Positions 19,259-45,139 of a DNA stretch of 64,000 nt are shown here, piece by piece (the stretch's first letter is position 1; every line of letters begins with the position of its first letter). The stretch covers positions 79,863,243-79,927,242 of the forward strand of contig NC_060248.1 in NCBI RefSeq assembly GCF_921293095.1, read 5' to 3'. The translations under genes were made by a program, and so were the position numbers. Source of the DNA: Ischnura elegans. Lineage: Eukaryota; Arthropoda; Insecta; Odonata; Coenagrionidae. Below the pieces are notes generated by a model. That model did not search any database. It saw nothing but the letters and a program-made list of their open reading frames with translations, and was not told the origin of the DNA.

Positions 19259-19280
19259 GAATTTCATTTCACTATTATTA

Positions 19281-19404: not shown

Positions 19405-20372
19405 AATTCCGAGGAATAAACGATTTCGATTTTACACTGTCGTGATGGGCGAATTTTCAAATTCGGATTTCGGCCTTGAGACATGTGCTATATGAAAATG
19501 TGGAATCTCCTAGAAAAACAGTTTAGGGTTCTTCGAACCCTAACGTTTCAGCCTGCTTTCCCCGTAACCTTCTTGGTTAATTCATAATTAAATTCCGAAA
19601 AATATCCTGCACGCGAAAAATCATTGTCGCCATTTTTTTGTGGGGCATACAATCTTGAATATCTTAGCAACCGTTCAAGCTAGATTAATGAAATTTTTAG
19701 GGTAATACTTTAATCAAAAAGGTCCACTTTTGAAATTATGTCCATTCCGCTCGATCAATTCATGTGCGAGCTATATCGATACTAATCTCCTTAGTTACGC
19801 TTTAATCGCTAATAACTTTTTTGTTAATCGAGTTTTGAATATGAAAGTCAGATATATAAAAGCTGATAATGTGTTTTATCCAACAAAAGTTAAATCAAGC
19901 GGATCGAATGATTAGGGCCGAAGTTATTATCGATCCAAGTGTGCATTCGATGGATCCCTTTTTTATACTTATTTACATAGTTACGGACATATAAATTTTA
20001 ATATTTTGTTAAGATAGAAAAGCTCTATGCACACATGCAAATAATGTTGATGGGTAACGATTCCTAATGAAAATATATCGATAGGACTCATTTTCTCCTT
20101 TGCTATTGACCGTACCTCTCCGATATTTTCAGGGTAGTACCTGATCGGTAATATAGATGTTTCGTTATAATAAGGGCTCCATGGCAACCATAGTTTTCAT
20201 TTTATATCGACATTTAATTTCAATGTAAAGTAAATGGCGATACACTCATATCGTTTTTACGTACGATTTGATTCAGGATTTCGAAGTGGTTGCTAAGGCT
20301 GGAAGTGATTGTTGATGTCTGGTAAACTAACTCTACTACACGTAAGCGTAACCAATTCATTATTTTGGTTTA
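19405..20372 (+). mobile_element. Truncated rolling-circle-like unit (A0)
   Basis: From AATTCCGAGGAATAAACG to about 20260 the sequence parallels the head of unit B (27685-28446) with many substitutions, including the shared CATAATTAAATTCCGAAAAA block. It has no 315-bp array and no 3' hairpin. It is therefore a remnant lying directly before the complete unit A. Confidence 0.65.
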
Positions 20373-23300
20373 TTATATATTTAAAGCTGGAAATTCATTA
20401 AAATTGCGTGATTGACCATAATTAGTAGCCCAAACTACCGGGCCGATCGAGCTGAGATTTTTTGTGGTAAAACTAAAAAAATATTCATCGGGAGAAAAAA
20501 TCTGAAAATGCCAAAAAGTGCGATACTTTTCGAGATATATCGATCTACTTTAACATGGGCTCTTATGGAAAAAAAACAAATTCGCGATATGACCCACTTT
20601 AAATCGCCGCACGCGGACGAGATCCAAATGGGAAACATTAGTTTTTTGGCCGATTTTTTTGGCATGGGTTAGAAGCTTCCAAGTCGAGCCGATTTCGAGA
20701 TATCGATTTACACGCGTTCTTATGTGATTTCGATTTGAGAGCTGGCGAACGAAACTTAAGCTATGTAGCTCGCGAAGTTGTTGGCACAAGCCTAACTATT
20801 CGTTAGACTTTGGGTTTTCTTTTTTAATTAGGTATCGTAATAGTTAATGAATTATTTCATTTTGAAATTTTCCCAAATTATTTTTTTGGCTTCCCGGCGA
20901 TCGCCGCCATTCCTCCCCGCCAAACGGCTTGAGGTCGGACTCGGTAAGAAAAACGCGCATCGCCTTATAGGAGGGAGCATGGCAGTAGACGGGAGAAATA
21001 CGATAAGTATGGGACGATACCCAATCAACCATCGCGGTCCATTCTTCGAAATGCATTGCTCTTTTGTTTTCAAATTATTATCTTAGGCCTCATGCACCAT
21101 TGGTGGGTATATGATTTTTTGATATAAGGGCCGCCATTGCCTGTTCGCCTAACCTATGCTGCCATTGAAAAACGCGAATTTGCACTACTTGGTTGGTATT
21201 ACAGGTAGACCAATGAAATTTGCAGGAATGGTACATCTTGGTATTCTTCACGGAGCAATGTTAAACATACTACTGCTGGTGGGCTAACCTTCGATATATA
21301 TCGAATCTACGTTTTATTGTATTTTATCGAATGCTAATAAGTACTTGGAATATTCATAAATGGGGGCAGATGTGCCGGCCTAACATTGAGAAAGACCAAG
21401 AAATGGAATATCAACCAATGAAATTGCGTATTTCAGAGTTCCGGGGTCAGCATAATCGAAAGTTCGATACGATTATTATACCAAATACGTAAAGTAGCAT
21501 AACTTCTTAAATATTTTTCATAGACCGATAAAATTTGGTTATTTGGTTCATCATAGTATTCCTCATAATTCACTGTAAAAACATAATTTGTATGTAGTCT
21601 CATATTCGATATATATCGATTCTGCGTTTTCTTAAAATGTATCGAATTGCTATACCACATAGTATGTAGTATCGAAGGGGTAAGTTGAGGTGGTATTAAA
21701 TAGTTGATGAGCATAAAAAGAATTCTGAATCATTAGAATTGCGCATTTCACCATACAGGTGTCAGTGTAATCGAAAGTTCGATTCGATTATTATACCAAA
21801 TAAGTAAATTGGCATAACTTGATAAGTATTTTCGTTACACCAACGAAATTTGGTAAATGAGTACATCTTGGTATTTCTCATGAAGTACACTGGGAATACG
21901 TACTGTATGTAGTCTCACATTCGATATATATCGAATCTGCGTTTTCCAAAAATATATCGAATTGCAATAATACTTAGGATTTAACATCCACAGGCATAGT
22001 TGACAAGGTAATAGATAGTGTACGACCATAGAATGAAATTCTAATCAATAGCTATGCGCATTTTACTGTACAGGTGTCAGAATAATCGAATGTTCGATTC
22101 GATTATAATAACAAATACGAATATTGACATAACTTGATAAGTATTAGAGTTAGTTGAATGAAATTTGGTAAATGAGTACATATTGGTATTCCTCATAATG
22201 TACAGGGAAAATATGTTTCCTATGTAGTCTAACATTCGATATATATCGAATCTGCCTTTCCTTAAAATATATCGAATTGCTATAACACATAGAATTTAGC
22301 ATCCACGGTCATAGTTGAGAAGGTAGTAGATAGTGTACGACCATAGAATGAAATTCTAATCAATAGTTATGAGCATTTTACTGTGCAGATGTCAGTATAA
22401 TCGAAAGATCGATTCGATTATTTTACCAAATACGTAAATTGCCATAACGTAATAAGTATTACTCTTAGAGCAATGAAATTTGGTGAATTGATACATCATG
22501 GTATTACACATAATGTGTTTTGTAAATATGTTTACTATGTTGTCTCATATTCGATATATATCGAATCTGCGTTTTCTTAAAATATATCGAATCGCTATAA
22601 TACATTGGATTTAACATCCACGGGCAAAGTTGAGGGGGAATATTATAGTGTAAGACCACAGATGGAAATTTGAATCAGTAGCATTGCGAATTTTACTGTA
22701 CAGGTGTCAGTATAATCGAAAGTTCGATTCGATTATTACATTAAATACGAATATTGACATAACATGATAAGTATTTGAGGTAGATGAATGATATTTGGTA
22801 AATGAGTACATATTAGTATTCCTCATAATGCAAAGGGGAAATATATTCTGTATGCTGTCTCACATTCGATATATATCGAATCTGCTTTTACCTAAAATAT
22901 ATCGAATTGCCATACCACATAGAATTTAGCATCCACGGGCAACGTTGTGAAGGTAATAGATAGTGGATGACCATATAATTAAATGCTTATCTATAGCTGT
23001 GAGTATTTTACTGTAAAGATGTCAGTTTAATCGAAACTTCGATTTGATTATTATTAGAAATACGAATATTAATATTACTTAATAAGTATTTGAGGTTGAT
23101 GAATGTAATTTGGATTATGGGTACATATTGGTATTCGTCATAATGCGCAGCGGAAATGCGTTTTTTATGTAGTCTCACATTCGATATATATCGAATCTGC
23201 GTTTCCTTAAAATGTATCGAATTGCTATATGACGTAGAATTTAGCATCCACGGGCATGGTTGAGAAGGTAATAGATAGTGGATGAATATAATGAATAGAA

Positions 23301-23688
23301 ATGGGTAACATAATAAAATTATGAATAGATTTTCGTATTTTTCAAAACAGATGTCACTTTTTTAAAGTTCGATTCGATTACTGTAGAAAATATTCAAAAT
23401 GACATATCTTCATAACTATTTCAGTTAGACCAATGAAATTTGAAGTGTGTGTGTACATTAGTATTCCTCTTACTTCCCAGTAGAAATTAATGAAGAGAAT
23501 GGACTACCTTTAGATTTATATCGCATATGCGTTTTCATACAATATGTCGAATTGCTTTAACATTACGTGGTGAAATTGTCGAACTTTTTACCAACTTAAG
23601 AACCCAGGACTAGGCTACAATTGACACCTCCATATCTTCTACCCTTTACACACCCGCTTGAAGAATTCAAGCACCCAATCGACTCGTT
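20373..23688 (+). mobile_element. Rolling-circle-like (Helitron/Helentron-type) unit A
   Basis: The unit has three parts. The head (20373-21289) starts TATATTTAAAGCTGGAA, contains CAAACTACCGGGCCGATCGAG and has a GC-rich block at about 20898-20950. The middle is seven 315-bp monomers (21290-23500). The tail contains the hairpin word CGCTTGAAGAATTCAAGC (23655-23672) followed by ACTCGTT. A hairpin 10-15 nt from the 3' end, no TIRs and an internal minisatellite are the architecture of non-autonomous Helitron/Helentron elements. No Rep/helicase is present. The class is inferred; the repeat structure is seen directly. Confidence 0.6.
21290..23600. repeat. 315-bp tandem array of unit A
   Basis: The palindrome TTCGATATATATCGAA (one copy with a final T) starts at 21290, 21605, 21920, 22235, 22550, 22865 and 23180, exactly 315 bp apart each time. 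A decayed eighth copy lies near 23513. Other monomer landmarks are AATCGAAAGTTCGATTCGAT, TGAAATTTGGTAAATG and GTACATATTGGTATTCCTC. The monomers differ from each other at many positions, so the array is not newly expanded. Confidence 0.95.
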
Positions 23689-24250
23689 TTTTGTAATGGT
23701 TGGTTTATTATTTGGTTTGGTGTAAAATTACATACTACATTATGCATCATTGAAATACGAAAAAATTCAATATTCAAGGCGCATCCTTACCCATTGAATC
23801 ATAGTAACCGGTAATACTGACCATTATATACCAGGGTTGCTTTTTCCCGTGGTTATTTAACCACACGAAATTACGGATAGTTTGCTATTAAAGAGAGTTC
23901 TTGGGGATGACGTCCAGGTCCAGGTTCTGGTGCACCAGGTGTCCGGGGGAGGTTCGCCGATGCCATATTTGAATTCAGCGACCCAAAAAACCCCCGGATG
24001 CCGCTTGTTTTTCCTTTCCCGCATGAACTCTGGGACAGTTCCTCGGAGATGACGTTCGACGGTGTTCCTGAGCCCCAGGTGGTCCGGGTGTCAATTTGAA
24101 CATCATAATCGTGATCAGCGACCCCAAAAACCCCCGAGTACCCGTTCCGGGCCAGTTCTGACTCTTTTCTACAAAGTTATTACGTTTTCCAAAGGGCGTC
24201 TCAGAAATTGCATTTTCCGAGTGCATTTTGGCCTGCAGCAATGCAACTAA
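23689..24250. repeat. DNA downstream of unit A with a two-copy GC-rich repeat
   Basis: No gene seen. At about 23910-24000 and 24047-24145 two diverged copies share GATGACGT, a CAGGTG..CCGG segment and CAGCGACCC.AAAAACCCCC. The region is GC-rich compared with its surroundings. The ORFs across it are on opposite strands and look incidental. Confidence 0.6.
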
Positions 24251-24252
24251 AG

Positions 24253-24386
24253 GTTTCTCCCAAATGAAAATATGGTAACTTTTTTACAAATAATTTTTGC
24301 AAGCGAATGCAAAAAACCGCATTCCGATCCGTCCAGGACGCAAAAATTTCTTTATTATGGCCTTTTTTCGCGTATCTTTCCTCGAC
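24253..24386. repeat. Inverted partner of 19281-19404
   Basis: GTTTCTCCCAAATGAAAATA through TTTCCTCGAC is the reverse complement of 19281-19404. The two arms lie about 5 kb apart and unit A is between them. Confidence 0.8.
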
Positions 24387-24783
24387 TATATATGAGATTT
24401 ATTAATGTTTACTTAAATTTTTATTAACAAAATACATGCCTAGATATTAGTGTCTAAATCAACTTGGTGCTCTTAATCCAAAGCGTGACCAGAAAGAAAC
24501 GTATCCATATAAGGTAATCTCACTAATCTCGCCTCGCCTCGCGGCAATTCTACAGGAAGTGAATACACGCAATGATTTAATTGCTCGAAGGAATCTAAAT
24601 AGGTATTTTTCTATTGGTAGAATTTGATATATTTTTCAATTGGGGGTGTAAGTTTCAATTAGAATATTTCGTTTACTCAGGCTAGTGATGATTTTTACAT
24701 GAAACTTTCCATCGGTCTGATTTATTACAAAATGATGAATGATTGCGATTTTAAAATACCTCCCAGCTACAATGAACGCACAA

Positions 24784-25075
24784 GGGTGGATTAAGGTCGT
24801 TATTTTTGGGGTTATTTAACACTTTCCGCAACTGTTTCGTGGTATTTATTACCCCTTAGAATTAAAGCGTTTTTAGGTCTCATATGCGCAGGCAAGTTTC
24901 CTTCAGATGTTCATATTTTATTTTTAAACAGTACTTCATACTAGTGAATTAAAAATTTTAATGGGAGAGTCACCTCATAGATTGCCTCTATATTTCTGCC
25001 TTATAGATTGCATTTACTAATTTTTCCAGAAATCACGGGGGGGGGGGCTGTTTCCTCCCCCTCTTAATCCACCCC
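24784..25075. mobile_element. MITE with GGGTGGATTAAG ends
   Basis: GGGTGGATTAAG (24784-24795) and its reverse complement CTTAATCCACCC (25063-25074) enclose about 290 bp with an 11-G tract near the right end. A related copy in opposite orientation is at about 54727-54993, where CGACCTTAATCCGCCCTTG mirrors the left end. No coding capacity. Confidence 0.6.
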
Positions 25076-25299
25076 TGAAGGGTGGTGTAAAGCAATGATA
25101 GCGGAAATATTTTTGATACTCTCTTCAATTAGGGTGCAGTTCTGATTCGTAGTCCCTGTTAACATATTATTTATAATTCCTTAAATCAATTATCTAAAAT
25201 TGTGTCTGGAGGTCACTGAATTCAAAGGAAATGTAAGAAGGGCGCAAAACCATTCATTTGTTTCCTTTGGCTCATGAAAAATAATGAATTTATATGGCA

Positions 25300-25385
25300 T
25301 TTACCAATTTTGTCATTTGAAAACGGGTTATATCCGAGTTTTAGCGAGTTATATCCGAGTGTAAACGGGTTATAACTTCTAGCAA
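25300..25385. repeat. Short repeated word GTTATATCCGAGT
   Basis: GGGTTATATCCGAGT, GAGTTATATCCGAGT and GGGTTATAACTT lie in tandem. Such stacked words occur at the ends of pogo/Tigger-like elements, but no partner end was found. Confidence 0.35.
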
Positions 25386-26260
25386 TTAAAAATAGGGTCA
25401 CCTCACTCAACCAGGTTAAAGTATAAAAATTAATTGAATAGACAATGAAACGCCACACCTGGAAACATAATGACAATTTTTATAACGGCGCACATGACTA
25501 CTGTTCATCGTTAAAACTAATCGCGACGGTCGGCATTATCACTGAAGAAAATTTAATGAGGGAAGAGAAAAATAATAATTTTTTACTTGTTCCAATGACG
25601 TTACCGATTTCGAAATAATTGCGCTGAGTCGTGAAACTTAAAATTTAAAAATAAAATAAAACTAAACCTTTCTCCTCTCCCTATTCTGTAAAATATAACG
25701 ATCGATTATAATTCTACATATCCCTCAGAGTTACCTCCAAGGTAAAAGGAACTAGAACATGTTCCTCCTGGTTTTCCATCGGAAAAGCTGATGTCAATGA
25801 CCACAGAACGAGCTTTCGTGAAGGCCATTCTCCAAACAATCTGACCAATGGTAGAGCTTAAACAGCTCCGCTTCACACTAATGAACCTGGCTATACGACT
25901 TATCAGCCATTAATCACAAGATTCTAATTTTTTAACCAGAGGAAACGGCGACATATTTTTTAACCAGTTTTGGCCATTGCCTCTTCAGAATCACTCTTTC
26001 TAATTCCACTTTTTTGTAATAACAGTTCCCACCATTATCAAATCAAGAGGTTTTAGAGCTGGTTTTTGGCTTCTATCTTACAGTGTTATGAACTTCTAAT
26101 CCTGCGGCAGAAAACAGGTTAAGCAGGGCCCGGACGATCGTCATGCTCGAGGCACCAAAATATAGATTCTACGGACTGGTTTTGATTTAAAATCACTGAA
26201 TAGCTATCCAGGAGGTTTCACAAAGCCTCTCGCAGAAGGAATCCAGGTTTGCTTCCTTAT

Positions 26261-26556
26261 CAGGGCCGATTTAAGCGGCAAGCAAAGTCCACAGCCACGT
26301 AGGTCGCCAAGCAAAAGGGGGCGCCTTAGCCCTCGTTCCAATTGGTTTTAAAGCTCTAAAATATCAAATTCAATACATGGCAGCAAGCACGTTATAAGTT
26401 CACGCTGATATTTAAGTATCGACCATTGGTCCTTCGGTACTTGTATTTATTTTAAAATTTATCCAGAGAGTATCCTTTCTATCTCTCTGGTTATTTTTGT
26501 GGGGGCCGCTGGAATTTTGTTCACTTACACTATAAAAATGTCTAGTACCGGCCCTG
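26261..26556. mobile_element. hAT-type MITE with 8-bp TSD
   Basis: The left end CAGGGCCGATTTA and the right end, inverted, CAGGGCCGGTACTA bound 296 bp. The flanking octamers TTCCTTAT (26253-26260) and TTCCTCAT (26557-26564) match at 7 of 8 positions. CAGGGCC ends and an 8-bp target duplication are typical of hAT elements. No transposase is present. Confidence 0.8.
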
Positions 26557-26583
26557 TTCCTCATGTAGGCGTACGCTGTTTTG

Positions 26584-26790
26584 AGGCCTTATTACACGGT
26601 ATATTAAACAGTTGGAGTTAATTTCTAAATGCATGAATGATTTTGGTGGGCCGGAACAGAACATGTTCTATTTTCTGTACATGCTTTCGCAAAAGTTGGA
26701 TGGTTACACGGTGGATTTTGCCGTTCATTCTCGCGTTCAGACATCGAGACATTAATTCATACGTTTTAATTTATCATGTAACACAGGCCT
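26584..26790. mobile_element. MITE related to the 49100-49334 element
   Basis: The ends AGGCCTTATTACACGG and, inverted, AGGCCTGTGTTACATG bound 207 bp. The interior is similar to the reverse complement of 49100-49334 (shared ACAGAAAATAGAAC and GAACGCGAGAATGAACG-type words). The termini are more decayed than in that copy. Confidence 0.65.
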
Positions 26791-27194
26791 TTAAAAAGCT
26801 AACTTTAATAACTTCCGCGTAAACCTAAACGTCCAGTAATCTTCCTCTGAGATTTTAATTTGTCACAAAAATTCAAATTTTACACTAATTTTAAGAAATG
26901 CTTAGCTTAAAAATTAATTATTGAAAGGATGTCAATGACATCTATTTAAAAGGTAGAATTCAAATAAATCGATGAATTGAAAAGCTGTTAACCATCAATA
27001 TAAAATAGGATAGCACTATGTCTGATGAAACAGGATGCTGGATTAAATGAAGTGAGAGAAAAAGGAGACGATTATGGATATTTTGGAGGTAAGCAAACTG
27101 AACGACAAGCTGGAAAGTGAAATGCAACTAAAATATTCATACGTGCAAAAATCAAGGTCAAATAAAAACTCTAGCTCAATTTTACCTTAAAAAT

Positions 27195-30100
27195 CCCTAT
27201 TAAAGCTGGAAAGTAATTCATTGATTGGGTGATTGACACAAATTAGTAGCCCAAACTGTGATATTTGTGGGTATATGGAATATTGGACGTAAAAGTAAAA
27301 AAAAATTCATCGGGAGGAAAAATCTGAAAAGTTGAAAAAGTCGATTAGTTTTCGAGATATATCGACTTGAATTAACATGGGAGCCTTATGGGACTACGAC
27401 TTTTTCGCATTTATTTTGTACTTTTAAACGCCCGAGGAACATGATATTCAATGGACATGGACTAGATTTTTTGGTCTATTTTTTGGTGTGGTTGCCATAG
27501 CGACGAATTGATATTTAGTATTTTTTATTACTGTTTGAACGCTCTCAATGCTTTTCTTATGGGAAAACTTTAGGAATTTTTTTGACCTACTTGCAATAAT
27601 CGTACGACAAATTCCTTTGCCAAAAAGTTAGATAATTTTTTGGTTGATTTTTTGGCTATCTCGAAATTTTCATATGTCGAAACAATTCCGAGGAATAAAC
27701 GATTTCGACTTTCCATTGTAGAGGTGGTCGAATTTTCAATCTTGGATTTCGGCGTTGAGACATGTGCCATATGAAAATTTGGAATCTCCAAGAAAAACCG
27801 TTAGAGGGTTCTCCGAACCCTCACGTTTGAGCTTACTTTCGCCGTATCCCTTTTGGTTAATTCATAATTAAATTCCGAAAAATGTCCTGCAAGCGAAAAA
27901 TCATTGTCGCCATTTTTTTGTGGAGCATGCAATCTTGAATATCTTAGCAACCGTTTAAGCTAGAGGAATGAAATTTTCAGAGTAATAATATTATTAAAAT
28001 GGTCAACTTTTGCAATGATGACCATTCCGCTCGATCGATTCATGTGCGAGTTATATCGATACGAATCTCCTTGGATACGCTTTAATCGCTAATAACTTTT
28101 TTATTAATCAAGTTTTGAACATGAATGTCATACAAAATACGACTGAAAATGTCATTCATCCGACAAAAGTTAAATCAGGCGAATCGATTGATTAGACTCG
28201 AAGTTATGATCGATACAAGGTTGTATTCGATTGAGCCATTTTTTGGGGCTTATTTACATAGTTACGGAAATAAAAATTTTAACAGTATGTAGGGAAAAAA
28301 ATGAATTATGCGCACACACAAATTATTTAGATGAATTATGTTTCCTACTGAAGATACATCGATTTGAATTTATATCTTTTTGTATTAGGCCCCCCGTAAG
28401 AAATACACGCATCCCGTCCAATTACGTCACCAATATAAGAACATAGGCTAAATTTTGAAAGCGGGGATATTAGAGATGGCAGGGATAAGGGAGTGACCAT
28501 AGAAGGGATATCAATAGGATTGCGGATTTTACAGTACAGATGTCAGCAGTGTCTAAAGTACGATTCGATTAGTATAGCAAATACGCAAATTGGCATAACT
28601 TGATAAGTGTGTACGTTGGACCAATGAAACTTGGTAAACAGGTACATCTTGGAATTCCTCACGATACTCTATGGTAGTATGTTTTGTATTCAGTCTCACG
28701 TTCGATATATATCGAATCTACTTTTTCTTAAAATATATCGAATTGCTATAACATGTAGGATTTAACATTCAAGGACATAGTGTACTAGGGATTAAATAGT
28801 AGATACCCATAGACTGGATTTAAAACCAATAGCATTGCGGATTTTACAGTACAGATGTCAGTATGATCGAAAAATCGATTCGATTATTATAGCAAATACG
28901 TAAATGGGCATAACTTCCATAGATTTACCGTTGGATCAATGAAATTTGGTGATTGGGTGCATATTGGTATTCCTCACGATGCCCAATGAAAATTTGTTTG
29001 GTACGTAGTCTCACATTCGATATATATCGAATCTACTTTTTCTTAAAATGTATCGAATTGCTATAACATGTAGGATTTTACATCCAAGGACATAGTTTAC
29101 TAGGGATTAAATAGTAGATACCCATTGACTGGATTTTAAACCAATAGCCTTGCGGATTTTACAGTACAGATGTCAGTATGATCGAAAAATCGATTCGATT
29201 ATTATAGCAAATACGTAAATGGGCATAACTTCAATAGATTTACCGTTGGATCAATGAAATTTGGCGATTGGGTACATATTGGTATTCCTCACGATGCCAA
29301 TCGAAAATTTGTTTTGTATGTAGTCTCACATTCGATATATATCGAATCTACTTTTTCTTAAAATGTATCGAATTGCTATAACATGTAGGATTTTACATCC
29401 AAGGACATAGATTACTAGGGATTAAATAGTAGATACCCATTGACTGGATTTTAAACCAATAGCCTTGCGGATTTTACAGTACAGATGTCAGTATGATCGA
29501 AAAATCGATACGATTATTATAACAAATACGTTAATGGGCATAACTTCAATAGATTTACCGTTGGATCAATGAAATTTGGTGAATGGGTACATATTGGTAT
29601 TCCTCACAATGCCCAATGAAAATTTGTTCTGTACGTAGTCTCACATTCGATATATATCGAATCTACTTTTTCTTAAAGTATATCGAATTGCTATAACATG
29701 TAGGATTTTACATCCACAGGCATAGTTGACCAGGTATTAAATAGTAGATACCCATTGACTGGATTTTAAACCAATAGCCTTGCCGATTTTACAGTACAGA
29801 TGTCAGTATGATCGAAAAATCGATTCGATTATTATAGCAAATACGTAAATGGGCATAACTTCAATAGATTTACCGTTGGATCAATGAAATTTGGTGAATG
29901 GGTACATATTGGTATTCCTCACAATGCCCAATGAAAATTTGTTCTGTACGTAGTCTCACATTCGATATATATCGAATCTACTTTTTCTTAAAGTATATCG
30001 AATTGCTATAACATGTAGGATTTTACATCCACAGGCATAGTTGACCAGGTATTAAATAGTAGATACCCATAGACTGACAATTAACCAATGGGATTGCGGA

Positions 30101-31604
30101 CTTTACCGTACAGATGTCAGTATGATCGAAAAATCGATTCGATTATTATAGCATATACACAAATTGGTATAACTTGAAAAGTATACCCGTTGGACCAATG
30201 AAATTTGGCGAATGTGCACATTTTGGTAATCCTCACACTGCCCAACAGAAATATGCTTTGTATGTTGTCTAACGTGCGATATATATCGAATATGCTTTTT
30301 CTTCAAATATATCGAACCGCTATAACATATAGGATTTTACATCCAAGGGCATAGTTGGCCAGGTATTGTATAGTAGATACACAGACTGAAAACTAAACCA
30401 ATAGCATTGCGGATTTTACAGTACAGATGGCAGTGTAATCGCAAGATCGATTCGATTATTCTATCAAATACGCAAATTTGCAAAACTTGATTAGTTTATA
30501 CGTTGGTCCAATGTAATTTGGCAAATGGGTACATCTTGGTATTCCTCACAATGCCCAAATGAAACATATTTTGTGTATAGAGTCACGTTCGGTATTAATC
30601 GAATCTACTTTTTCTTAAAATATATCGTATTGCTATAACATATAGGATTTTACATCCAAGGACATAGTTGACCAATATAATTATGTGGAAGATAGCCATA
30701 GACTGTAAGTTAAATCAATAGCATTGCGGATTCAACGATACAAATGCCAGTATAATCGAAGAATGGATTCGATTATTATAACAAATACATAACATTGGCA
30801 CAAGTTGAATAGTGTATCCGTTGGACCAATTAAATTTGGTGCTTGGTACATCTTGGTATTCCTCACAATTCCCAAAGGTAATATGTTTTGCATGTAGTCT
30901 CACGATTGATGCATATCGAATATGCTTTTTCTTAAAATATATCGAATCGTTATAACATAGGATTTTGCATGCACGTACATAGTCGACCAGGAATTTTAGG
31001 GTTGATGATCAAAGATTGGAAGGTATATCAATCGGATTGCGTATTTTCAATGCACGTGTCAGTATACTTGATAATTCGATACGATTATGATATCAAATAT
31101 GCCAAATCTTTTTTGCAATATGGAATATCTTGAGAATAACTATTTTTTAAGACCAAAGAAATTAGAGGAATCGTTACAATTCAGTATTTTACAAACTGCA
31201 TTATGGAAATTCGTTTTGCAAGTGGAATATCTTTATATATTTATCTAAAGAATCTGCGTTGTATTTTCAAGAGTGGCTTATCGCAATGCTTATGAACTTT
31301 AACAGTTGAAAAATAACCACATAATCAACACTCTCCTGAAATTTTTAAAACCTTATTCCGATTATGTGTCAATGGTTAACTTAATGGATCAAAGAATCAA
31401 TTATCCGTCAAATAAAATCACATTGAAAATAACAAATATTTCTAACAGTGAAAAATTTAGTTCCTTACCCTTTCAAAAAACGGCGGGGAAATTTTTGAAT
31501 ATTAAACCACTTATGGGCACATGACTCGAAAATATGTGACACAAATATGTTTCCACCACCCCTAATTACCCGCTTGATGAATTCAAGCGCCCAATCGACT
31601 CGTT
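27195..31604 (+). mobile_element. Rolling-circle-like unit B
   Basis: The head starts TATTAAAGCTGGAAAGT and shares ATTCATCGGGAGGAAAAATC and CGAGATATATCGAC with units A, C and D. It is the longest head (about 1.5 kb). The array runs from 28701 and the tail hairpin CGCTTGATGAATTCAAGCG is at 31571-31589, followed by ACTCGTT. Unit C begins immediately after. Its 5' side touches the end of the 6.8-kb duplicated block. Confidence 0.6.
28701..31220. repeat. 315-bp tandem array of unit B
   Basis: The palindrome occurs at 28701, 29016, 29331, 29646 and 29961 with exact 315-bp spacing, then in decayed forms at about 30275, 30588 and 30906. Monomers 2-5 are very similar to each other (shared CCGTTGGATCAATGAAATTT and ATCGAAAAATCGATTCGAT), which indicates local homogenisation inside this array. 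Confidence 0.95.
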
Positions 31605-34600
31605 ACATATATAAAAGCTGCAAATTGGTTTATCACTGACTGATTGATACAAATTCACAGCCCAAACTGCCGGGTCGATCGAGTTGAAATTTTCGGTGGT
31701 TAAACTAAAAAATAATTCATTGGGAGGAAAAATCTCAAAATTCCGAAAAGTGCGATACTTTTCGATATATATCGAGTTGAATTAACATGGCAGCCTTATG
31801 GGACTAAAACTCTTTCCTTAATTACGACATAACTAGGCGTCTCAGGGTAATCGTCTCCCATTGACGTAAACTAGATTTTTTGGTCGATTTTTTGGTACCT
31901 TCGTTTTTCGTCGAACTCTTTCGATCACTGTCGAAATAATTTTTGAAAATCGACAATGCTTTTCTTATGGACCAACTTTGGAATTTTTTTTGACCCACTT
32001 GCAAAAGTAGTAGGACCGTCGCCGCCTAATACAATTTATCTTATTTTTTACCTGATTTTTTTATTATCTCGGAATTTTCGTATGTCGAATAGATTCCGAG
32101 TTATTAGCATTATCGAAATAACATTGTCGAGATAGGACGATCGATAAATATCGATTTGAGAGCTGGCGCTTCAAAATTAGGCTATTCAGCTCAAAAAAGC
32201 ATGCCTACAAACGTACCTCCGGTACGTCCAGGTTTTCATTTTTATTTAGATTTCGTAATATATAACGAGTTATTTCATTCCGAATTTTTCCCAAATTATT
32301 TTCTTGAGCCCGCGGCAATCGCCGCCATTCCTCTCCGCCAAGCGGGCGGTGGTCGGTGCCCGTAAGATATACACGCATTTCCCTATCTCATACGTGCATT
32401 TACAAGGGTGAAATTTGAAGACGGCTAACATAGGACTATTCCCAGTAAAGCCTCACCTCCTAACATTTTAAGTATTGATTTTTTCATTACGTAAACGGTA
32501 TCGCATATGCAACAGTCATTTGTTATGTATACGGATTTCCCATTGACATTGGCCATAGGCTTAGAAGGTGACTTCTACTGCAATGGTGAAACGGAAATGA
32601 GCATACCTTCTAAAGTATTTCACCTAGGCCTATGAAATTTGCCCAGTAGGTACATCATTGTATTCCTAATATGCATATATAAAAGTTTATCCACTAATGG
32701 CCATTACTTTCGATATATATCGAAACTACGTTTTCTTGAATTTTATCGAATGCTAATAACTTATTGGAATACTTATCTCCGGGGATAGTTGTGCTGGCAT
32801 AACATGTGAAGCGAACAACCAATGGAAAAAAAACGATTGACATGCGTATTTCAGACCACCGATGTCAGTATAATCGAATTTTCGATTCGATTACAATAAC
32901 TAAAATGACTATTGACATAACTTGAAAAGTATTTGAGGTAGATGAATGAAATTTGGTACATTGGTACATATTGGTATTCCTCATAATACAATGGGGAAAT
33001 ATGTTTTGCATGTAGTCCCATGTCGATATATATCGAATCTGCGTTTTCTTAAAATATATCGAATTTCTATAACACATAGGATTTAACACCCACGTGCAAA
33101 GTTGAGGCGGAATTTAACTGTGAGTGACAATAAAATTAATTTTGAACGATTACAATTGCGCTTTTTACCATAAATGCGTCCGTTTAATCGAAAGTTCGAT
33201 TCGATTATTATAACAAATGCGAATATTGGCATAACTTGAAAAGTATTTGAGGTGGATGAATGAAATTTGGTAAATGGGTATATATTGGTATTCCTCATAA
33301 TGCGATGGGGAAATATGTTTTGTATGTAGTCTCACATTCGATATATATCGAATCTGCGTTTTCTTCAAATGTATCGAATTGCTATAGTACGTAAAAATTA
33401 AGCATTTGAGGGCATAATTGTGTTGGTAATAGATAGTGGATGACCATAGAATGTAATTCGCATCAATAGGTATGATATTTTTACCATACAGATGTCAGTA
33501 TAATCGAAGTTCAATTCGATTATTATATGAAATACGAATATTGACATAACTTGAGAAGTATTTCAGGTAGATGAATGAAATTTGGTAAATGGGTACATAT
33601 TGGTATTTGGCATAATGCAAAGGGTATATACGTTTTGTATGTCATCTCTAATTCGATATATATCGAATCTGCGTTTTCTTCAAAAGTATCGAATATCTAT
33701 ACTAGGTAAAAATTAAGCATCCACGGTCATTGTTGTGATGGTAATAGATAGTGGATGACATTGAATGAAATTCGAATCACTAGCTATGAGATTGTTACCA
33801 TACAGATGTCAGTATAATCGAAGTTCGATTCGAGTATTATATGAAATACGAATATTGACATAATTTGAAAATTATTTGAGGTAGATGAATGAAATTTGGA
33901 AAATGGGTACATATTGGTATTCACATAACGCACAGCGGAAATACGTTTTGTATGTCGTCTCACATTCGATATATATCGAATCCGCTTTTCATTAAAATAT
34001 ATCGAATTGCTATATCACATAGTATTTAGCATCCACGGGCATAGTTGTGATGGTAATAGATATTTGAGGACCATAGAACGCAACTTTAATCAATAGCAAT
34101 GAGTATTTCACTGTACCGATGTCAGTATAATCGTAAGTTCGATTCGATTAATATCGCAAATACGAATATTGATATAACTTGATAAGTATTTCAGGTAGAT
34201 CAAAGAAATTTGGTATACGGGTACATATTGGTATTTCTCATTATGCCAAGGGGAAATACGTTTTGTATGTAGCCTCACATTCGATATATATCGAAGCTTC
34301 GTTTCCTTAAAATGTATCAATTTGCTATACCACGTAGGTTTTTGCATCCACGGGCATAGTTGAGAAGGTGAGAGATAGTGGGTGACCATAGAATGAATAT
34401 TAATCAATATCTCTGAGGATTTTACTTTATGTATGTTAGTATATTCGAAATATCGATTCGAATATTATAACAAATACGAATATTGACATAACTTGAAAAG
34501 TATTTGAGGTATATGAATGAAATTTGGTAAATGACTAAATATTGGTATTCTTCAAAATGCACATAGGACATATGTTTTGTATTTAGTCTGTCATTCGATA

Positions 34601-35108
34601 TATATCGAAAATGCGATTACTTAAGGTGTATCACATTGCTTTACAACATAATATGTTGTATCCACGGGCATATTCGAGAAGGTTTATAGATAATGGATGA
34701 ATAGAATGAATTTGTATGGATATTTTGATGAAAGTATGAATAGAATTTGTGTATTTTTCAATACAGATGTCACTTTATTCATAAGTTCGATTCGATTATT
34801 GTAGCAAATATGCAAATTGACATATCTTAGTAACTATTTCAGTAAGAGGTATGAAATTTCGTGTGTGAGTACATATTAGTATTCCACTTGCTGTCAAATA
34901 GAAATTAATGAAGACTATGGGCTAAGTTCCAATTAATATCAAATATGAGTTTTCATAAAATTAATCGACTGGCTTTACCTTTGACATGGTGAATTTCTCA
35001 TACTTTTCAACAACTTATGGACCCAAGACACAACTACTTATGACACAACGATACACACTATACCCTTCACTAACACGCTTGAAGAATTCAAGCGACAATA
35101 TACTCGTT
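31605..35108 (+). mobile_element. Rolling-circle-like unit C
   Basis: Head about 31605-32708, array 32709-34980, tail hairpin CGCTTGAAGAATTCAAGCG at 35076-35094 and terminal ACTCGTT. The head is nearly the same as that of unit D over about 950 bp and carries the GC-rich block GCAATCGCCGCCATTCCT at about 32316. It abuts unit B upstream and unit D downstream without spacer. Confidence 0.6.
32709..34980. repeat. 315-bp tandem array of unit C
   Basis: Palindromes start at 32709, 33022 (decayed), 33337, 33652, 33965, 34280 and 34594, with spacings of 313-315 bp. The final segment before the tail is diverged, as in the other units. Confidence 0.93.
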
Positions 35109-38100
35109 AGATATATTAAAGCTGCAATCGGATTGATCACTGACTGATTCATCATAATTCCCAGCCCAAACTGCCGAGTCGATCGAGTTGAAATTTTCGG
35201 TGGTAAAAGTAAAAAAAAATTCATCGGGAGGAAAAATCTCAAAATCCCGAAAAGTTCGATACTTTTCGATATATATCGAGTTGAATTAACATGGCAGCCT
35301 TATGGGACTAAAACTCTTTCCTTAATTACGACTAAACTTGGCGTCTCAGGGTAATCGTCTCCCATTGACGTAAACTAGATTTTTTTGTCTATTTTTTGGT
35401 ACCTTTGCTTTTCGTCGAACTCTTTCGATCACTGTCGAAATAATTTTTGAAAATCGACAATGCTTTTCTTATGGACCAATTTTGGAATTTTTTTTGACCC
35501 ACTTGCAAAAGTAGTAGGACCGTCGCCGCCTAATACAATTTATCTAATTTTTTACCTGATTTTTAGGCTATCTCGGAATTTTCGTATGTCGAATAGATTC
35601 CGAGTTATTAGCATTATCGAAATAACATTGTCGAGATAGGACGATAAATAAATATCGATTTGAGAGCTGGCGCTTCAAAATTAGGCTATTCAGCTCAAAA
35701 AAGCATGCCTACAAACGTACCTTCGGTACGTCCAGGTTTTCATTTTTAATTAGGTTTCGTAATATTTAATGAATTATTTCGTTCCGAAATTTTCCCAAAT
35801 TATTTTCTTGAACCCCCGGCAATCGCCGCCATTCCTAGCCGCCAAACGGGCGGTGGTCGGTGCCCGTAAGTAATACACGCATTTCCCTATCCCATTAATG
35901 TATTTAGACGGGTGAAATTTGCGGAGGGCTAACATAGGTCTATACCCAGTAAAGCCTCACGGAAAAACTTTTTAAAGTATTGATTTTTTCATTACGTATT
36001 CGGTATCGCATATGCAACAGTCATTTGTTATATATACGGATTTCCCATTGACATTGGCCATAGGCTTAGAAGGTGAATTTACTGCAATGGTGTAATGGAA
36101 AAGAGCATAACTTCCAAAGTATTTCACCTAGGCCTATGAAATTTGGCAGGTAGGTACATCATTGTATTTTTATTATGACTATATAAAATTTAGTCCAATA
36201 ATGGCCATAATTTTCGATATATATCGAACCTACGTTTTCTTAAATTCTATCGAATGTTAATAACTTATTGGAATACTCATCTCCGGGAGAAAGTTGTGCC
36301 GGTTTACATGTAAAAACGACCAATCAATTGAAAAAAAAACAAATGACATGGATATTTCAGAGAGCCGGTGTCAGTATAATCGAATTTTCGATTCGATTAT
36401 TATAACTAAAATGAATATTGAGATAACTTTATAAGTATTTGCGGTAGATGAATGAAATTTGGTAAATTGGTACTATTTGGTATTGCTCATAATTCAATGG
36501 GGAAATTTGTTTTGTATGTAGTCCCATATTCGATATATATCGAATCTGCGTTTTCTTAAAATATATCGAATTGCTATAACACATACGATTTGGCATCCAC
36601 GGGCATATGTGCGATGGTAATAGATAGTGGATGACCATAGAACGATTTTCGAATCAATAGCTATGAGCATTTTGCCGTACAGATTTCAGTGTTATCGAAC
36701 GTTCGATTCGATTATAATAAGAAATAGGAATATTGACATAACTTGGGAAGTATTTGAGGTAGATGAATGAAATTTGGTAAATGGGTAGATATTGGTATTT
36801 GGCATCATGCACAGGGGATATACGTTTTGTATTTTGTTTTACATTCGATATATATCGAATCTGCGTTTTCTTAAAATATATCGAATTGCTATAATACATA
36901 CGATTTGACATCCACGGGCATATGCGCGATGGTAATAGATAATGCATGACCATAGATTGAATTTCGAATCAATAGCTTTGAGTATTTTGCCGCACATATG
37001 TCAGTGTAATCGAACGTTCGATTCGATTATAATAAGAAATAGGAATATTGACATAACATGAGAAGTGTTTGAGGTAGATGAATGAAATTTGGTAAATGGA
37101 TACATATTGGTATTTGTCATAATGAACAGGGGATAAACGTTTTGTATGTCGTCTCACATTCGATATATATCGAACCTACGTTTTCTTCAAATGTATCGAA
37201 TTGCTATACTACGTAAAAATTAAGCATCCACGGGCATAGTTGTGATTGAAATAGATAGTGGATCACCATAGAATGAAATTCGAAGAAATAAATATGAGAA
37301 TTTTACCATACAGATGTCATTATAATCGAAGTTCGATTCGAATATTATATGAAATACGAATATTGACATAACTTGAGAATTATTTGAGATACATGAATGA
37401 AATTTGGTGAATGGGTACATATTGGTATTCCTCATAACGCACAGGGGAAATACGTTTTGTATGTCGTCTCACATTCCATATATATCGAACCTACGTTTTC
37501 TTCAAATGTATCGAATTGCTATACTACGTAAAAATTAAGCATCCACGGGCATAGTTGTGATTGAAATAGATAGTGGATCACCATAGAATGAAATTCGAAG
37601 AAATAAATATGAGAATTTTACCATACAGATGTCATTATAATCGAAGTTCGATTCGAATATTATATGAAATACGAATATTGACATAACTTGAGAATTATTT
37701 GAGATACATGAATGAAATTTGGTGAATGGGTACATATTGGTATTCCTCATAACGCACAGGGGAAATACGTTTTGTATGTCGTCTCACATTCCATATATAT
37801 CGAATACGCTTTTCATTAAAATATATCGAATTGCTATATCACATAGTATTTAGCATCCACGGGCATAGTTGTAATGGTAATAGATATTTGATGACCATAG
37901 AACGCAACTTCAATCAATAGCAATGAGTATTTCACTGTACCGATGTCAGTATAATCGTAAGTTCGATTCGATTATTACGGCAAATACGTTAATTGATATA
38001 ACTTGATAAGTATTTCAGGTAGATCAAAGAAATTTGGTACATGGGTACATATTGGTATTCTTCTTAATCCAATAGTGAAATATGTTTTGTATGTAGTCTA

Positions 38101-38930
38101 ACATTCGATATATATCGAATCTGCGTTTCCTTAAAATGTATCGATTTGCTATACCACGTAGGTTTTTGCATCCACGGGCATAGTTGAGAAGGTGAGAGAT
38201 AGTGGATGACCATAGAATGAATATTAATCAATATCTATGAGCATTTTACATTATATATGTAAGTGTTTTCGAAATATCGATTCGATTACTATAACAAATA
38301 CGAATATTGACATAACTTGAAAAGTATTTGAAGTAGATGAATGAAATTTGGTAAATGAGTAAATATTGGTATTCCTCATAATGCAATTAGGAATGATGTT
38401 TTGTATTTAGTCTCACATTCGATATATATCGAATCTGCGATTACTTAAAATGTATCAAATTGCTTTATATCATAATATTTAGTATCCAAGGGCATATTTG
38501 AGAAGGATTATAGATAACGGATGAATGTGATGAATCCGTATGGATATAATGATGAAAGTTTGAATAGATTTGCGTATTTTTCAACACAGATGTCGCATTA
38601 AGCATAAGTTCGATTCGATTATTGTAGCAAATATGCAAATTGACATATCTTAGTAACTTTTTCAGTTAGAGGTATGAAATTTCGTGTGTGAGTACATATT
38701 AGTATTCCACTTGCTGTCAAATAGAAAATAATGAAGACAATGGGATAAGTTACAATTAATATCAAATAAGAGTTTTCATAAAATTAATCGAACGGCTTTA
38801 CCTTTGACATGGTGAATTTTTCGAACTTTTCAACAACTTATGGACCCAAGACCAAACTACTTAGGACACAACGATACACACTATACCCACCACGACACGC
38901 TTGAAGAATTCAAGCGATAAAATACTCGTT
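35109..38930 (+). mobile_element. Rolling-circle-like unit D
   Basis: Head about 35109-36212, array 36213-38800, tail hairpin CGCTTGAAGAATTCAAGCG at 38898-38916 followed by ATACTCGTT. The terminal TT merges with the start of the second copy of unit A. The tail is nearly identical to that of unit C. Confidence 0.6.
36213..38800. repeat. 315-bp tandem array of unit D
   Basis: Palindromes or close variants start at 36213, 36529, 36844, 37159, 37474, 37789, 38104 and 38419. The monomers at about 37176-37490 and 37491-37805 appear identical, so this array has the most recent internal duplication. Confidence 0.95.
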
Positions 38931-41900
38931 ATATATTTAAAGCTGGAAATTCATTAAAATTGCGTGATTGACCATAATTAGTAGCCCAAACTACCGGGCC
39001 GATCGAGCTGAGATTTTTTGTGGTAAAACTAAAAAAATATTCATCGGGAGAAAAAATCTGAAAATGCCAAAAAGTGCGATACTTTTCGAGATATATCGAT
39101 CTACTTTAACATGGGCTCTTATGGAAAAAAAACAAATTCGCGATATGACCCACTTTAAATCGCCGCACGCGGACGAGATCCAAATGGGAAACATTAGTTT
39201 TTTGGCCGATTTTTTTGGCATGGGTTAGAAGCTTCCAAGTCGAGCCGATTTCGAGATATCGATTTACACGCGTTCTTATGTGATTTCGATTTGAGAGCTG
39301 GCGAACGAAACTTAAGCTATGTAGCTCGCGAAGTTGTTGGCACAAGCCTAACTATTCGTTAGACTTTGGGTTTTCTTTTTTAATTAGGTATCGTAATAGT
39401 TAATGAATTATTTCATTTTGAAATTTTCCCAAATTATTTTTTTGGCTTCCCGGCGATCGCCGCCATTCCTCCCCGCCAAACGGCTTGAGGTCGGACTCGG
39501 TAAGAAAAACGCGCATCGCCTTATAGGAGGGAGCATGGCAGTAGACGGGAGAAATACGATAAGTATGGGACGATACCCAATCAACCATCGCGGTCCATTC
39601 TTCGAAATGCATTGCTCTTTTGTTTTCAAATTATTATCTTAGGCCTCATGCACCATTGGTGGGTATATGATTTTTTGATATAAGGGCCGCCATTGCCTGT
39701 TCGCCTAACCTATGCTGCCATTGAAAAACGCGAATTTGCACTACTTGGTTGGTATTACAGGTAGACCAATGAAATTTGCAGGAATGGTACATCTTGGTAT
39801 TCTTCACGGAGCAATGTTAAACATACTACTGCTGGTGGGCTAACCTTCGATATATATCGAATCTACGTTTTATTGTATTTTATCGAATGCTAATAAGTAC
39901 TTGGAATATTCATAAATGGGGGCAGATGTGCCGGCCTAACATTGAGAAAGACCAAGAAATGGAATATCAACCAATGAAATTGCGTATTTCAGAGTTCCGG
40001 GGTCAGCATAATCGAAAGTTCGATACGATTATTATACCAAATACGTAAAGTAGCATAACTTCTTAAATATTTTTCATAGACCGATAAAATTTGGTTATTT
40101 GGTTCATCATAGTATTCCTCATAATTCACTGTAAAAACATAATTTGTATGTAGTCTCATATTCGATATATATCGATTCTGCGTTTTCTTAAAATGTATCG
40201 AATTGCTATACCACATAGTATGTAGTATCGAAGGGGTAAGTTGAGGTGGTATTAAATAGTTGATGAGCATAAAAAGAATTCTGAATCATTAGAATTGCGC
40301 ATTTCACCATACAGGTGTCAGTGTAATCGAAAGTTCGATTCGATTATTATACCAAATAAGTAAATTGGCATAACTTGATAAGTATTTTCGTTACACCAAC
40401 GAAATTTGGTAAATGAGTACATCTTGGTATTTCTCATGAAGTACACTGGGAATACGTACTGTATGTAGTCTCACATTCGATATATATCGAATCTGCGTTT
40501 TCCAAAAATATATCGAATTGCAATAATACTTAGGATTTAACATCCACAGGCATAGTTGACAAGGTAATAGATAGTGTACGACCATAGAATGAAATTCTAA
40601 TCAATAGCTATGCGCATTTTACTGTACAGGTGTCAGAATAATCGAATGTTCGATTCGATTATAATAACAAATACGAATATTGACATAACTTGATAAGTAT
40701 TAGAGTTAGTTGAATGAAATTTGGTAAATGAGTACATATTGGTATTCCTCATAATGTACAGGGAAAATATGTTTCCTATGTAGTCTAACATTCGATATAT
40801 ATCGAATCTGCCTTTCCTTAAAATATATCGAATTGCTATAACACATAGAATTTAGCATCCACGGTCATAGTTGAGAAGGTAGTAGATAGTGTACGACCAT
40901 AGAATGAAATTCTAATCAATAGTTATGAGCATTTTACTGTGCAGATGTCAGTATAATCGAAAGATCGATTCGATTATTTTACCAAATACGTAAATTGCCA
41001 TAACGTAATAAGTATTACTCTTAGAGCAATGAAATTTGGTGAATTGATACATCATGGTATTACACATAATGTGTTTTGTAAATATGTTTACTATGTTGTC
41101 TCATATTCGATATATATCGAATCTGCGTTTTCTTAAAATATATCGAATCGCTATAATACATTGGATTTAACATCCACGGGCAAAGTTGAGGGGGAATATT
41201 ATAGTGTAAGACCACAGATGGAAATTTGAATCAGTAGCATTGCGAATTTTACTGTACAGGTGTCAGTATAATCGAAAGTTCGATTCGATTATTACATTAA
41301 ATACGAATATTGACATAACATGATAAGTATTTGAGGTAGATGAATGATATTTGGTAAATGAGTACATATTAGTATTCCTCATAATGCAAAGGGGAAATAT
41401 ATTCTGTATGCTGTCTCACATTCGATATATATCGAATCTGCTTTTACCTAAAATATATCGAATTGCCATACCACATAGAATTTAGCATCCACGGGCAACG
41501 TTGTGAAGGTAATAGATAGTGGATGACCATATAATTAAATGCTTATCTATAGCTGTGAGTATTTTACTGTAAAGATGTCAGTTTAATCGAAACTTCGATT
41601 TGATTATTATTAGAAATACGAATATTAATATTACTTAATAAGTATTTGAGGTTGATGAATGTAATTTGGATTATGGGTACATATTGGTATTCGTCATAAT
41701 GCGCAGCGGAAATGCGTTTTTTATGTAGTCTCACATTCGATATATATCGAATCTGCGTTTCCTTAAAATGTATCGAATTGCTATATGACGTAGAATTTAG
41801 CATCCACGGGCATGGTTGAGAAGGTAATAGATAGTGGATGAATATAATGAATAGAAATGGGTAACATAATAAAATTATGAATAGATTTTCGTATTTTTCA

Positions 41901-42244
41901 AAACAGATGTCACTTTTTTAAAGTTCGATTCGATTACTGTAGAAAATATTCAAAATGACATATCTTCATAACTATTTCAGTTAGACCAATGAAATTTGAA
42001 GTGTGTGTGTACATTAGTATTCCTCTTACTTCCCAGTAGAAATTAATGAAGAGAATGGACTACCTTTAGATTTATATCGCATATGCGTTTTCATACAATA
42101 TGTCGAATTGCTTTAACATTACGTGGTGAAATTGTCGAACTTTTTACCAACTTAAGAACCCAGGACTAGGCTACAATTGACACCTCCATATCTTCTACCC
42201 TTTACACACCCGCTTGAAGAATTCAAGCACCCAATCGACTCGTT
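38929..42244 (+). mobile_element. Rolling-circle-like unit A, second copy
   Basis: Identical to 20373-23688 as far as I can read. It follows unit D directly, sharing the TT at 38929-38930, so B-C-D-A' form a contiguous run of four units. Confidence 0.6.
39846..42156. repeat. 315-bp tandem array, second copy of array A
   Basis: Same seven 315-bp monomers as at 21290-23600, shifted by 18,556 bp. Confidence 0.95.
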
Positions 42245-43339
42245 TTTTGTAATGGTTGGTTTATTATTTGGTTTGGTGTAAAATTACATACTACATTATG
42301 CATCATTGAAATACGAAAAAATTCAATATTCAAGGCGCATCCTTACCCATTGAATCATAGTAACCGGTAATACTGACCATTATATACCAGGGTTGCTTTT
42401 TCCCGTGGTTATTTAACCACACGAAATTACGGATAGTTTGCTATTAAAGAGAGTTCTTGGGGATGACGTCCAGGTCCAGGTTCTGGTGCACCAGGTGTCC
42501 GGGGGAGGTTCGCCGATGCCATATTTGAATTCAGCGACCCAAAAAACCCCCGGATGCCGCTTGTTTTTCCTTTCCCGCATGAACTCTGGGACAGTTCCTC
42601 GGAGATGACGTTCGACGGTGTTCCTGAGCCCCAGGTGGTCCGGGTGTCAATTTGAACATCATAATCGTGATCAGCGACCCCAAAAACCCCCGAGTACCCG
42701 TTCCGGGCCAGTTCTGACTCTTTTCTACAAAGTTATTACGTTTTCCAAAGGGCGTCTCAGAAATTGCATTTTCCGAGTGCATTTTGGCCTGCAGCAATGC
42801 AACTAAAGGTTTCTCCCAAATGAAAATATGGTAACTTTTTTACAAATAATTTTTGCAAGCGAATGCAAAAAACCGCATTCCGATCCGTCCAGGACGCAAA
42901 AATTTCTTTATTATGGCCTTTTTTCGCGTATCTTTCCTCGACTATATATGAGATTTATTAATGTTTACTTAAATTTTTATTAACAAAATACATGCCTAGA
43001 TATTAGTGTCTAAATCAACTTGGTGCTCTTAATCCAAAGCGTGACCAGAAAGAAACGTATCCATATAAGGTAATCTCACTAATCTCGCCTCGCCTCGCGG
43101 CAATTCTACAGGAAGTGAATACACGCAATGATTTAATTGCTCGAAGGAATCTAAATAGGTATTTTTCTATTGGTAGAATTTGATATATTTTTCAATTGGG
43201 GGTGTAAGTTTCAATTAGAATATTTCGTTTACTCAGGCTAGTGATGATTTTTACATGAAACTTTCCATCGGTCTGATTTATTACAAAATGATGAATGATT
43301 GCGATTTTAAAATACCTCCCAGCTACAATGAACGCACAA

Positions 43340-43631
43340 GGGTGGATTAAGGTCGTTATTTTTGGGGTTATTTAACACTTTCCGCAACTGTTTCGTGGTA
43401 TTTATTACCCCTTAGAATTAAAGCGTTTTTAGGTCTCATATGCGCAGGCAAGTTTCCTTCAGATGTTCATATTTTATTTTTAAACAGTACTTCATACTAG
43501 TGAATTAAAAATTTTAATGGGAGAGTCACCTCATAGATTGCCTCTATATTTCTGCCTTATAGATTGCATTTACTAATTTTTCCAGAAATCACGGGGGGGG
43601 GGGCTGTTTCCTCCCCCTCTTAATCCACCCC
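43340..43631. mobile_element. MITE with GGGTGGATTAAG ends, duplicate
   Basis: Copy of 24784-25075 carried by the second large block. The ends and the 11-G tract are unchanged. Confidence 0.6.
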
Positions 43632-45112: not shown

Positions 45113-45139
45113 TTCCTCATGTAGGCGTACGCTGTTTTG

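Follow-up and report, generated by a model that had tools for sequence, protein, structure and literature searches.

A 64,000-nucleotide stretch of the damselfly Ischnura elegans genome (NC_060248.1, positions 79,863,243 to 79,927,242, hereafter the window) contains kilobase-sized units that follow one another head to tail, each with its own array of 314–315-bp monomers, and raises the question of how such a chain is built and what its repeats are. The initial annotation, made from the sequence alone, read these units (B, C, D and A') as rolling-circle-like, Helitron-type elements joined as a concatemer that could seed satellite DNA, with the missing helicase supplied by an autonomous partner elsewhere, unless the class is a different one.

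Here, we compare the units with the 1.7227-Gb assembly (110 contigs, the window lying on contig C3) and conclude that they are probably non-autonomous copies of a Helitron family whose autonomous members encode a Helraiser-like RepHel protein and have the same 5' and 3' ends as units C and D, the chains having been built by successive single-copy additions at the ends of resident copies.

Units with shared ends and an autonomous partner

Self-comparison of the window gave the order left flank, A, X, B, C, D, A', X', right flank. Between 27195 and 42242, B, C, D and A' are contiguous and in the same orientation, with zero spacer between neighbours, and every unit carries a hairpin of 17–19 nt located 12–14 nt from an end whose last letters are ACTCG. 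The five hairpins match with 0–1 mismatch, and no match occurred in 100 shuffles. The spacer-free chain had been annotated from 19405, a start that does not hold, as 19405–20372 is not a unit (19386–20082 resembles the interior of B at 83%) and 3.5 kb of other DNA (X) lies between A and B. Unit A is isolated, with GGTTTA/TTATAT at its 5' side and ACTCG/TTTTTTGTAATGG at its 3' side (slashes mark junctions). A common start had been described as well: TATATnnAAAGCTG, with up to one mismatch allowed, occurs in the window only at A and A', while C and D start with one base fewer and the B start reads TTAACGTCCC at other loci.

Genome-wide, the element seems to start with TT and to end with CTCG, although the search patterns contained the terminal letters and this constancy is partly one of choice. 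We read 55 ends, selected with a pattern that resembles the hairpin and allows ACTCG one mismatch at most, the end of A counting twice via A'; all 55 have CTCG and a 17-nt hairpin, of three types, 12–14 nt from the end, in keeping with the short hairpin that canonical Helitrons have about 10–12 nt before theirs. After nine isolated 3' ends come TT, itself part of the search pattern, and then unrelated DNA; a tenth, presumed to be the last of a chain, is followed by a B unit.

Chains recur throughout the samples that we read. A first look with the 61-bp B/C junction returned 1,562 candidates, of which 40 were scored, 16 of them at 100%. Ten junction places read over 20 kb each hold 3–6 junctions per place in varying order, such as C-B-B-C-D-C (L011) and B-C-D-A-C (L025); these loci were selected for a near-perfect B/C junction, and that all are chains says nothing on frequency. 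Exact 3' ends (pattern including TT) number 2,355 genome-wide, against 0 for a reversed-pattern control. Among the first 100 by position, all on contig C1, 86 fall in 13 same-strand runs of 2–15 ends (gaps of at most 20 kb), spaced by 2.5–6 kb in 66 of 73 intervals; neighbours within 20 kb are on the same strand in 73 of 75 cases, where chance would give 2.5 neighbours in all. ACTCG lies immediately upstream of 74 of the 98 exact A-type 5' ends, forming a G/T junction. We read all remaining 24: in 13 a unit 3' end abuts the start or is no more than about 20 nt away from it, and in the other 11 none shows in the 40–70 nt read. Exact B-type 5' ends number 473, and when the 25 on contig C1 below 77.93 Mb were compared with the 100 3' ends above, 19 shared the TT, two lay within 4 nt and four had none of these ends upstream. 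Among the open-licence papers returned by our literature searches, no title or abstract opening describes comparable chains in a damselfly.

As annotated, the window appears to lack a helicase, insofar as the domain search of the genome placed no Helitron-domain match within it and, of its four frames of at least 150 aa, the two that were scanned gave one reverse transcriptase and nothing, respectively. The predicted partner is present elsewhere. A genome search with the Helitron N-terminal domain yielded 119 matches, including a band of 29 at 156–169 bits, grouped by score only; leaving out one (contig C12, 191 aa, with a stop), 25 of the 28 RepHel copies in this band have open frames of 1,481–1,499 aa. 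Several of these copies are less than 80 kb away from scored B/C junctions. On contig C10 a complete autonomous unit of 17,650 bp stands between a B unit directly upstream and a C unit downstream. Its 5' end is 91.7% identical to C and 95.0% to D over 1.09 kb, and it contains C-type 315-bp monomers, a 2.5-kb direct repeat, an intact 1,486-aa RepHel and the 3' end common to the other units. Because D matches it at 89.9% over the first 2.67 kb, C and D look like internal-deletion derivatives of the autonomous unit, to judge by sequence similarity.

Autonomous units are themselves members of chains. On contig C8, a unit encoding a 1,481-aa RepHel has the common hairpin and ACTCG at its 3' end; B, C, a C-like unit and A continue directly from there, in that order. 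Of the 28 copies, two were known beforehand, six fell outside the sample and 20 were probed at their predicted 3' end, 19 of which could be read (one contig was too short). The probe caught the 3' end in 13 of 19 cases, and in 13 of 13 the next unit starts there or one base further on; the other six held no end and are uninformative either way.

The RepHel protein aligns to Helraiser over residues 167–1484 (E 4e-206), keeping the HAH motif and two tyrosines. The 1,486-aa open reading frame of L038 matches PF14214 and PF05970, with HAH at 582, YLFKY at 719 and the nucleotide-binding loop GPSGTGKT at 1056, so that the family has the RepHel with HUH motif, two tyrosines and PIF1-type helicase of canonical Helitrons. 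No endonuclease domain is among the 10 Pfam families matched by the one RepHel protein scanned. A protein collection search with residues 230–800 ranked two uncharacterised I. elegans proteins first, ahead of one from Planococcus citri and of unnamed sequences. On contig C8 (L037, L039), a 1,039-bp block upstream of the RepHel frame is present in about five head-to-tail copies at 99.6–99.8% identity, a second kind of tandem repeat inside an autonomous element. Score and frame length separate further RepHel groups in the genome, of about 1,120 aa and about 1,800–1,900 aa, and some copies of the latter lie roughly 40–80 kb apart on one strand (contigs C13 and C5).

Other transposon classes fit poorly. 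Terminal or subterminal inverted repeats of A, B, C and D do not exceed exact matches of 4–7 nt, no longer than in shuffles, and with no inverted ends found a terminal-inverted-repeat transposon was rejected. A Helentron, Helitron2 or HINE assignment was rejected as well, given no subterminal inverted repeats of about 11–15 bp, no endonuclease domain in the scanned RepHel and, where insertion between T and T would be expected, no T before TTATAT in any of the 11 A copies outside chains. The rolling-circle assignment in the initial annotation is supported by the RepHel element with the same 5' and 3' ends, which that annotation had named as a check, by insertion sites outside chains that fit a host A and T, and by terminal inverted repeats not being found.

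Insertion sites and the assembly of chains

To see where single copies land, we consider the 11 A copies that lie outside chains. The base before their start TTATATATTT is A in 10 (nine of them TA), G in one and T in none, and the B unit of L025 starts with TTAACG after GCATA. This fits insertion between a host A and T (A^T), as read from the 5' flanks. Four A copies (L063, L077, L090 and L114) have ACTCGTTA upstream, as expected from A^T insertion into a resident A-type start.

We propose that RepHel would be the acting enzyme and that rolling-circle transposition would deliver single new copies, added one by one at the ends of resident copies, with same-strand chains and perfect 3'-5' G/T junctions as the outcome and the 315-bp arrays copied along with the element. 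The most economical route would be canonical insertion at a host A^T in which a resident 5' end supplies the T as its opening base, and joined ends might also serve as target and starting point. We infer both the attraction to resident ends and the direction of growth. On a stronger version, for and against which we find ourselves evenly divided, the Helitron would be self-targeting: RepHel would prefer resident 5' ends and joined ends, each junction would be end, start and target at once, and autonomous and satellite-bearing non-autonomous units would stack in the manner of cassettes. The A^T route needs no new chemistry, and the novelty would lie in how strong the preference would have to be.

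The relatedness of the units bears directly on this proposal. Among 33 C-type units in 11 chains, the nearest relative lies in the same chain for three, against a shuffle mean of 2.14, and 727 of 2000 shuffles reach three; mean distances are 0.133 within chains (36 pairs) and 0.128 between chains (492 pairs). Because concatemers or local duplications should leave related neighbours, which we do not observe, these comparisons favour unit-by-unit assembly from a dispersed pool, and local tandem duplication was set aside as the main route. Near-identical single units do occur in different chains. B units on contigs C9 and C3 are 99.91% identical over 4,417 bp with both edges at junctions and different chains around them, and C units on contigs C10 and C3 are 99.86% identical over 3,503 bp, with a drop in identity at either junction that stops at about 90% on the right, where the next units are related as well. 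Of 19 blocks shared between units (at least 97.5% identity and 1.2 kb), two have both edges at junctions; right edges away from locus ends coincide with a junction in 14 of 16, and differing monomer numbers split some high-identity blocks.

Several observations weigh against successive single-copy addition at A^T. The termini (5' TT, 3' CTCG) depart from the canonical TC and CTRR, a start at TC being possible for the window's B, and one of the 11 non-chain A copies follows G. At L013 4055–4059, amid DNA that apart from this is no chain, a B unit starts after ACTCG with no hairpin upstream, and the A unit of L113 follows CTCGTTA, likewise with no hairpin upstream. Left edges of the shared blocks, where away from locus ends, lie at a junction in four of 10, with five inside units and one 63 nt short of a junction, so that units may also exchange sequence internally. 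In L017, two neighbours (13863 and 17678) are 99.5% alike. The window's B, which lacks 6 nt, meets X where a perfect duplication has its edge, and neither an empty site nor an insertion polymorphism came to light. If chains grew at the 5' edge, we would expect the closest relatives first in a chain, and the outcome is mixed: nearest relatives from 5' to 3' follow such an age gradient in L025 (99.9, 99.8, 95.4, 97.8 and 93.9%), with no gradient in L013 (96.7, 97.5, 94.1 and 98.4%) or in B-C-D-A' of the window (98.9, 94.6, 97.5 and 97.8%).

Site-specific insertion into the G^T junction itself, as opposed to the A^T before the first unit, is possible if rather doubtful. The near-identical B pair and C pair each include an internal copy (L017 and L011), which makes internal arrivals conceivable, and the L013 and L113 units just described have ACTCG or CTCGTTA before them without a hairpin. 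Yet non-chain A copies indicate A^T and not G^T, and a newcomer landing before a resident would yield a perfect junction without any G^T cutting, as described for maize (PMC2267711). We set aside ACTCG as a general target motif, since 10 of the 11 non-chain A copies follow A; the L013 and L113 units still favour it.

We consider it unlikely that the chains are an ordinary higher-order satellite, maintained by unequal exchange and gene conversion between arrays long after transposition ended. Long chains of related units on a single strand imply some exchange; L025 shares the order B-C-D-A with the window, and six of the 10 left block edges lie off junctions. Against this stand the two blocks with both edges at junctions (one being the 99.91% B pair) and the right edges at junctions, although the difference of the next units would also end blocks there. 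Exact A copies without a chain in front (11 of 98, 10 of them after A) and the long open frames in 25 of 28 RepHel copies likewise speak against it.

Least probable by our estimate are the rolling-circle concatemers of the initial annotation, in which bypass of the 3' terminator would lay down several units in tandem per event: circles with their ends joined would account for perfect junctions free of host bases (PMC4778049) and the L017 pair would fit, but neighbours are often of different subfamilies and no closer than chance, near twins are single units of separate chains, and the units read retain both ends, as opposed to arrays with many 5' ends and one 3' end (PMC12628747).

Window layout and the 315-bp arrays

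Table 1. Units, tandem arrays, terminal hairpins and intervening DNA in the window
Feature	Position	Strand	Details
Unit A, non-autonomous Helitron derivative, 3,314 bp	20373..23686	+	5' TTATATATTTAAAGCTGG after host A; 3' ACTCG before T
Unit A tandem array	21446..23285	+	315 bp, 5.8 copies
A 3' terminal hairpin	23655..23673	+	
X, 3.5 kb	23687..27194	+	separates A from B, no unit; duplicated as X'
Unit B, 4,408 bp	27195..31602	+	start CCCTATTAAAGCTGG after ..TTAAAAAT; without first 6 nt (TTAACG) or start at TCCC
Unit B tandem array	28512..30995	+	315 bp, 7.9 copies
B 3' terminal hairpin	31571..31589	+	
Unit C, 3,504 bp	31603..35106	+	directly after B
Unit C tandem array	32861..34714	+	period 314, 5.9 copies
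C 3' terminal hairpin	35076..35094	+	
Unit D, 3,822 bp	35107..38928	+	directly after C; 89.9% to autonomous unit over first 2.67 kb
Unit D tandem array	36369..38524	+	315 bp, 6.8 copies; about one monomer more than near twin in L013
D 3' terminal hairpin	38898..38916	+	
Unit A', identical to A	38929..42242	+	directly after D
Unit A' tandem array	40002..41841	+	315 bp, 5.8 copies
A' 3' terminal hairpin	42211..42229	+	
X', identical to X	42243..45750	+	right end meets other sequence (AAAAAT/GGGCC)

The window's units are not four independent ones as had been assumed, since 20373–27194 and 38929–45750 are 100% identical over 6,822 bp, and A with its 3.5-kb right flank is thus copied perfectly as A' with its flank. 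X' joins the right flank at TTAAAAA/TGGGCC and B joins X at TTAAAAA/TCCCTATT, without the TTAACG present in a close relative in L027; that relative, 98.9% alike over the 5' 1 kb, carries TTAACGTCCCTATTAAAGCTGG, and among chain-starting B units only the window's lacks its first bases. For the window alone, we give an even chance to an account in which the second A-X block arose as an artefact of the assembly, or else B-C-D-A inserted at AAAAA^T and recombination with the resident A completed its 3' side, recopying A and X. The zero differences and breakpoints at the 5' TT of A and at AAAAAT agree with this, and 25 haplotypic duplications were removed from the assembly by curation, according to the assembly paper (PMC9975421). 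On the other side, a C- or D-type end joined to A recurs at other loci, so the junction itself is normal.

As annotated, each unit has its own array of about 315-bp monomers. The monomers were compared as a set of 284 from 45 units, with the identical A and A' both included. Only seven have their nearest relative in their own unit; with the own unit left out, the nearest monomer stands at the same ordinal position for 160, where 37.8 would be expected. Divergence is 21.8% within units and 20.7% between units of one type, indicating no within-array homogenisation, and unit lengths vary by one or a few monomers. Because monomers correspond by position across units, the arrays appear to be cargo inherited with the element, in its 5' half, and the proposal that such units seed satellite DNA is not borne out. 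Many monomers (for example 33020–33040) hold a palindrome like TTCGATATATATCGAA, and a similar palindrome lies in the 5' part of the unit, from which the monomer may be derived.

Other features surround the units. Just to their left, a 967-aa open frame with endonuclease and reverse transcriptase domains (15767–18670) marks a non-LTR (long terminal repeat) retrotransposon, part of which 19005–19249 resembles at 76%. An inverted repeat, 89.7% identical over 136 bp, flanks unit A (19279–19404 against 24253–24388, and again 42809–42944), perhaps as the ends of another transposon or as two opposite copies. A 21-bp tandem repeat at 25321–25374 and 43877–43930 (AAACGAGTTATATCCGAGTGT) is similar to the unit junction in reverse complement, a likeness that may be due to chance. 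No known RNA or tRNA genes were found within the window.

Comparison with known Helitrons

The bat canonical Helitron Helraiser/Helibat1 resembles the present family in its RepHel, a 3' hairpin near the end, an A before most non-chain copies and terminal inverted repeats not being found. Unlike Helraiser, with its TC and CTAG termini, the family in I. elegans has 5' TT and 3' CTCG, carries a satellite array and lives largely in chains (PMC4778049, PMC5876387). Non-autonomous elements with central satellite-like repeats and a 3' palindrome are otherwise described among the Helentron-derived HINE, DINE-1 and Cg_HINE (PMC4067079, PMC7492417); here, by contrast, we find no subterminal inverted repeats, no endonuclease in the scanned RepHel, and A instead of T before most non-chain copies. 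Satellite-like arrays can spread genome-wide as the fixed cargo of an element without behaving as satellite DNA, which separates two often-joined ideas.

Tandem Helitrons are also reported as arrays in plant centromeres (Xiong et al. 2016, via PMC12628747). According to that source, the plant elements are truncated and many combine several 5' ends with a single 3' end, whereas the units that we read keep both ends and their chains occur at many places. Another likeness is with head-to-tail Helitrons of maize and bat, in which the 3' end of one element meets the 5' end of the next in a perfect G/T joint. The maize pair consists of unlike elements and was read as consecutive insertions, a newcomer landing at a host A^T before the resident leaving a perfect G/T junction. 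Those reports concern one pair or several cases, unlike the 74 of 98 exact A copies, the runs of up to 15 ends and the autonomous chain members described here (PMC2267711). Head-to-tail Helitrons have so far been read, from few cases, as rolling-circle tandem products or as consecutive insertions (PMC2267711); the many junctions between distinguishable units in I. elegans discriminate between both readings, with the balance in favour of consecutive insertion directed to ends.

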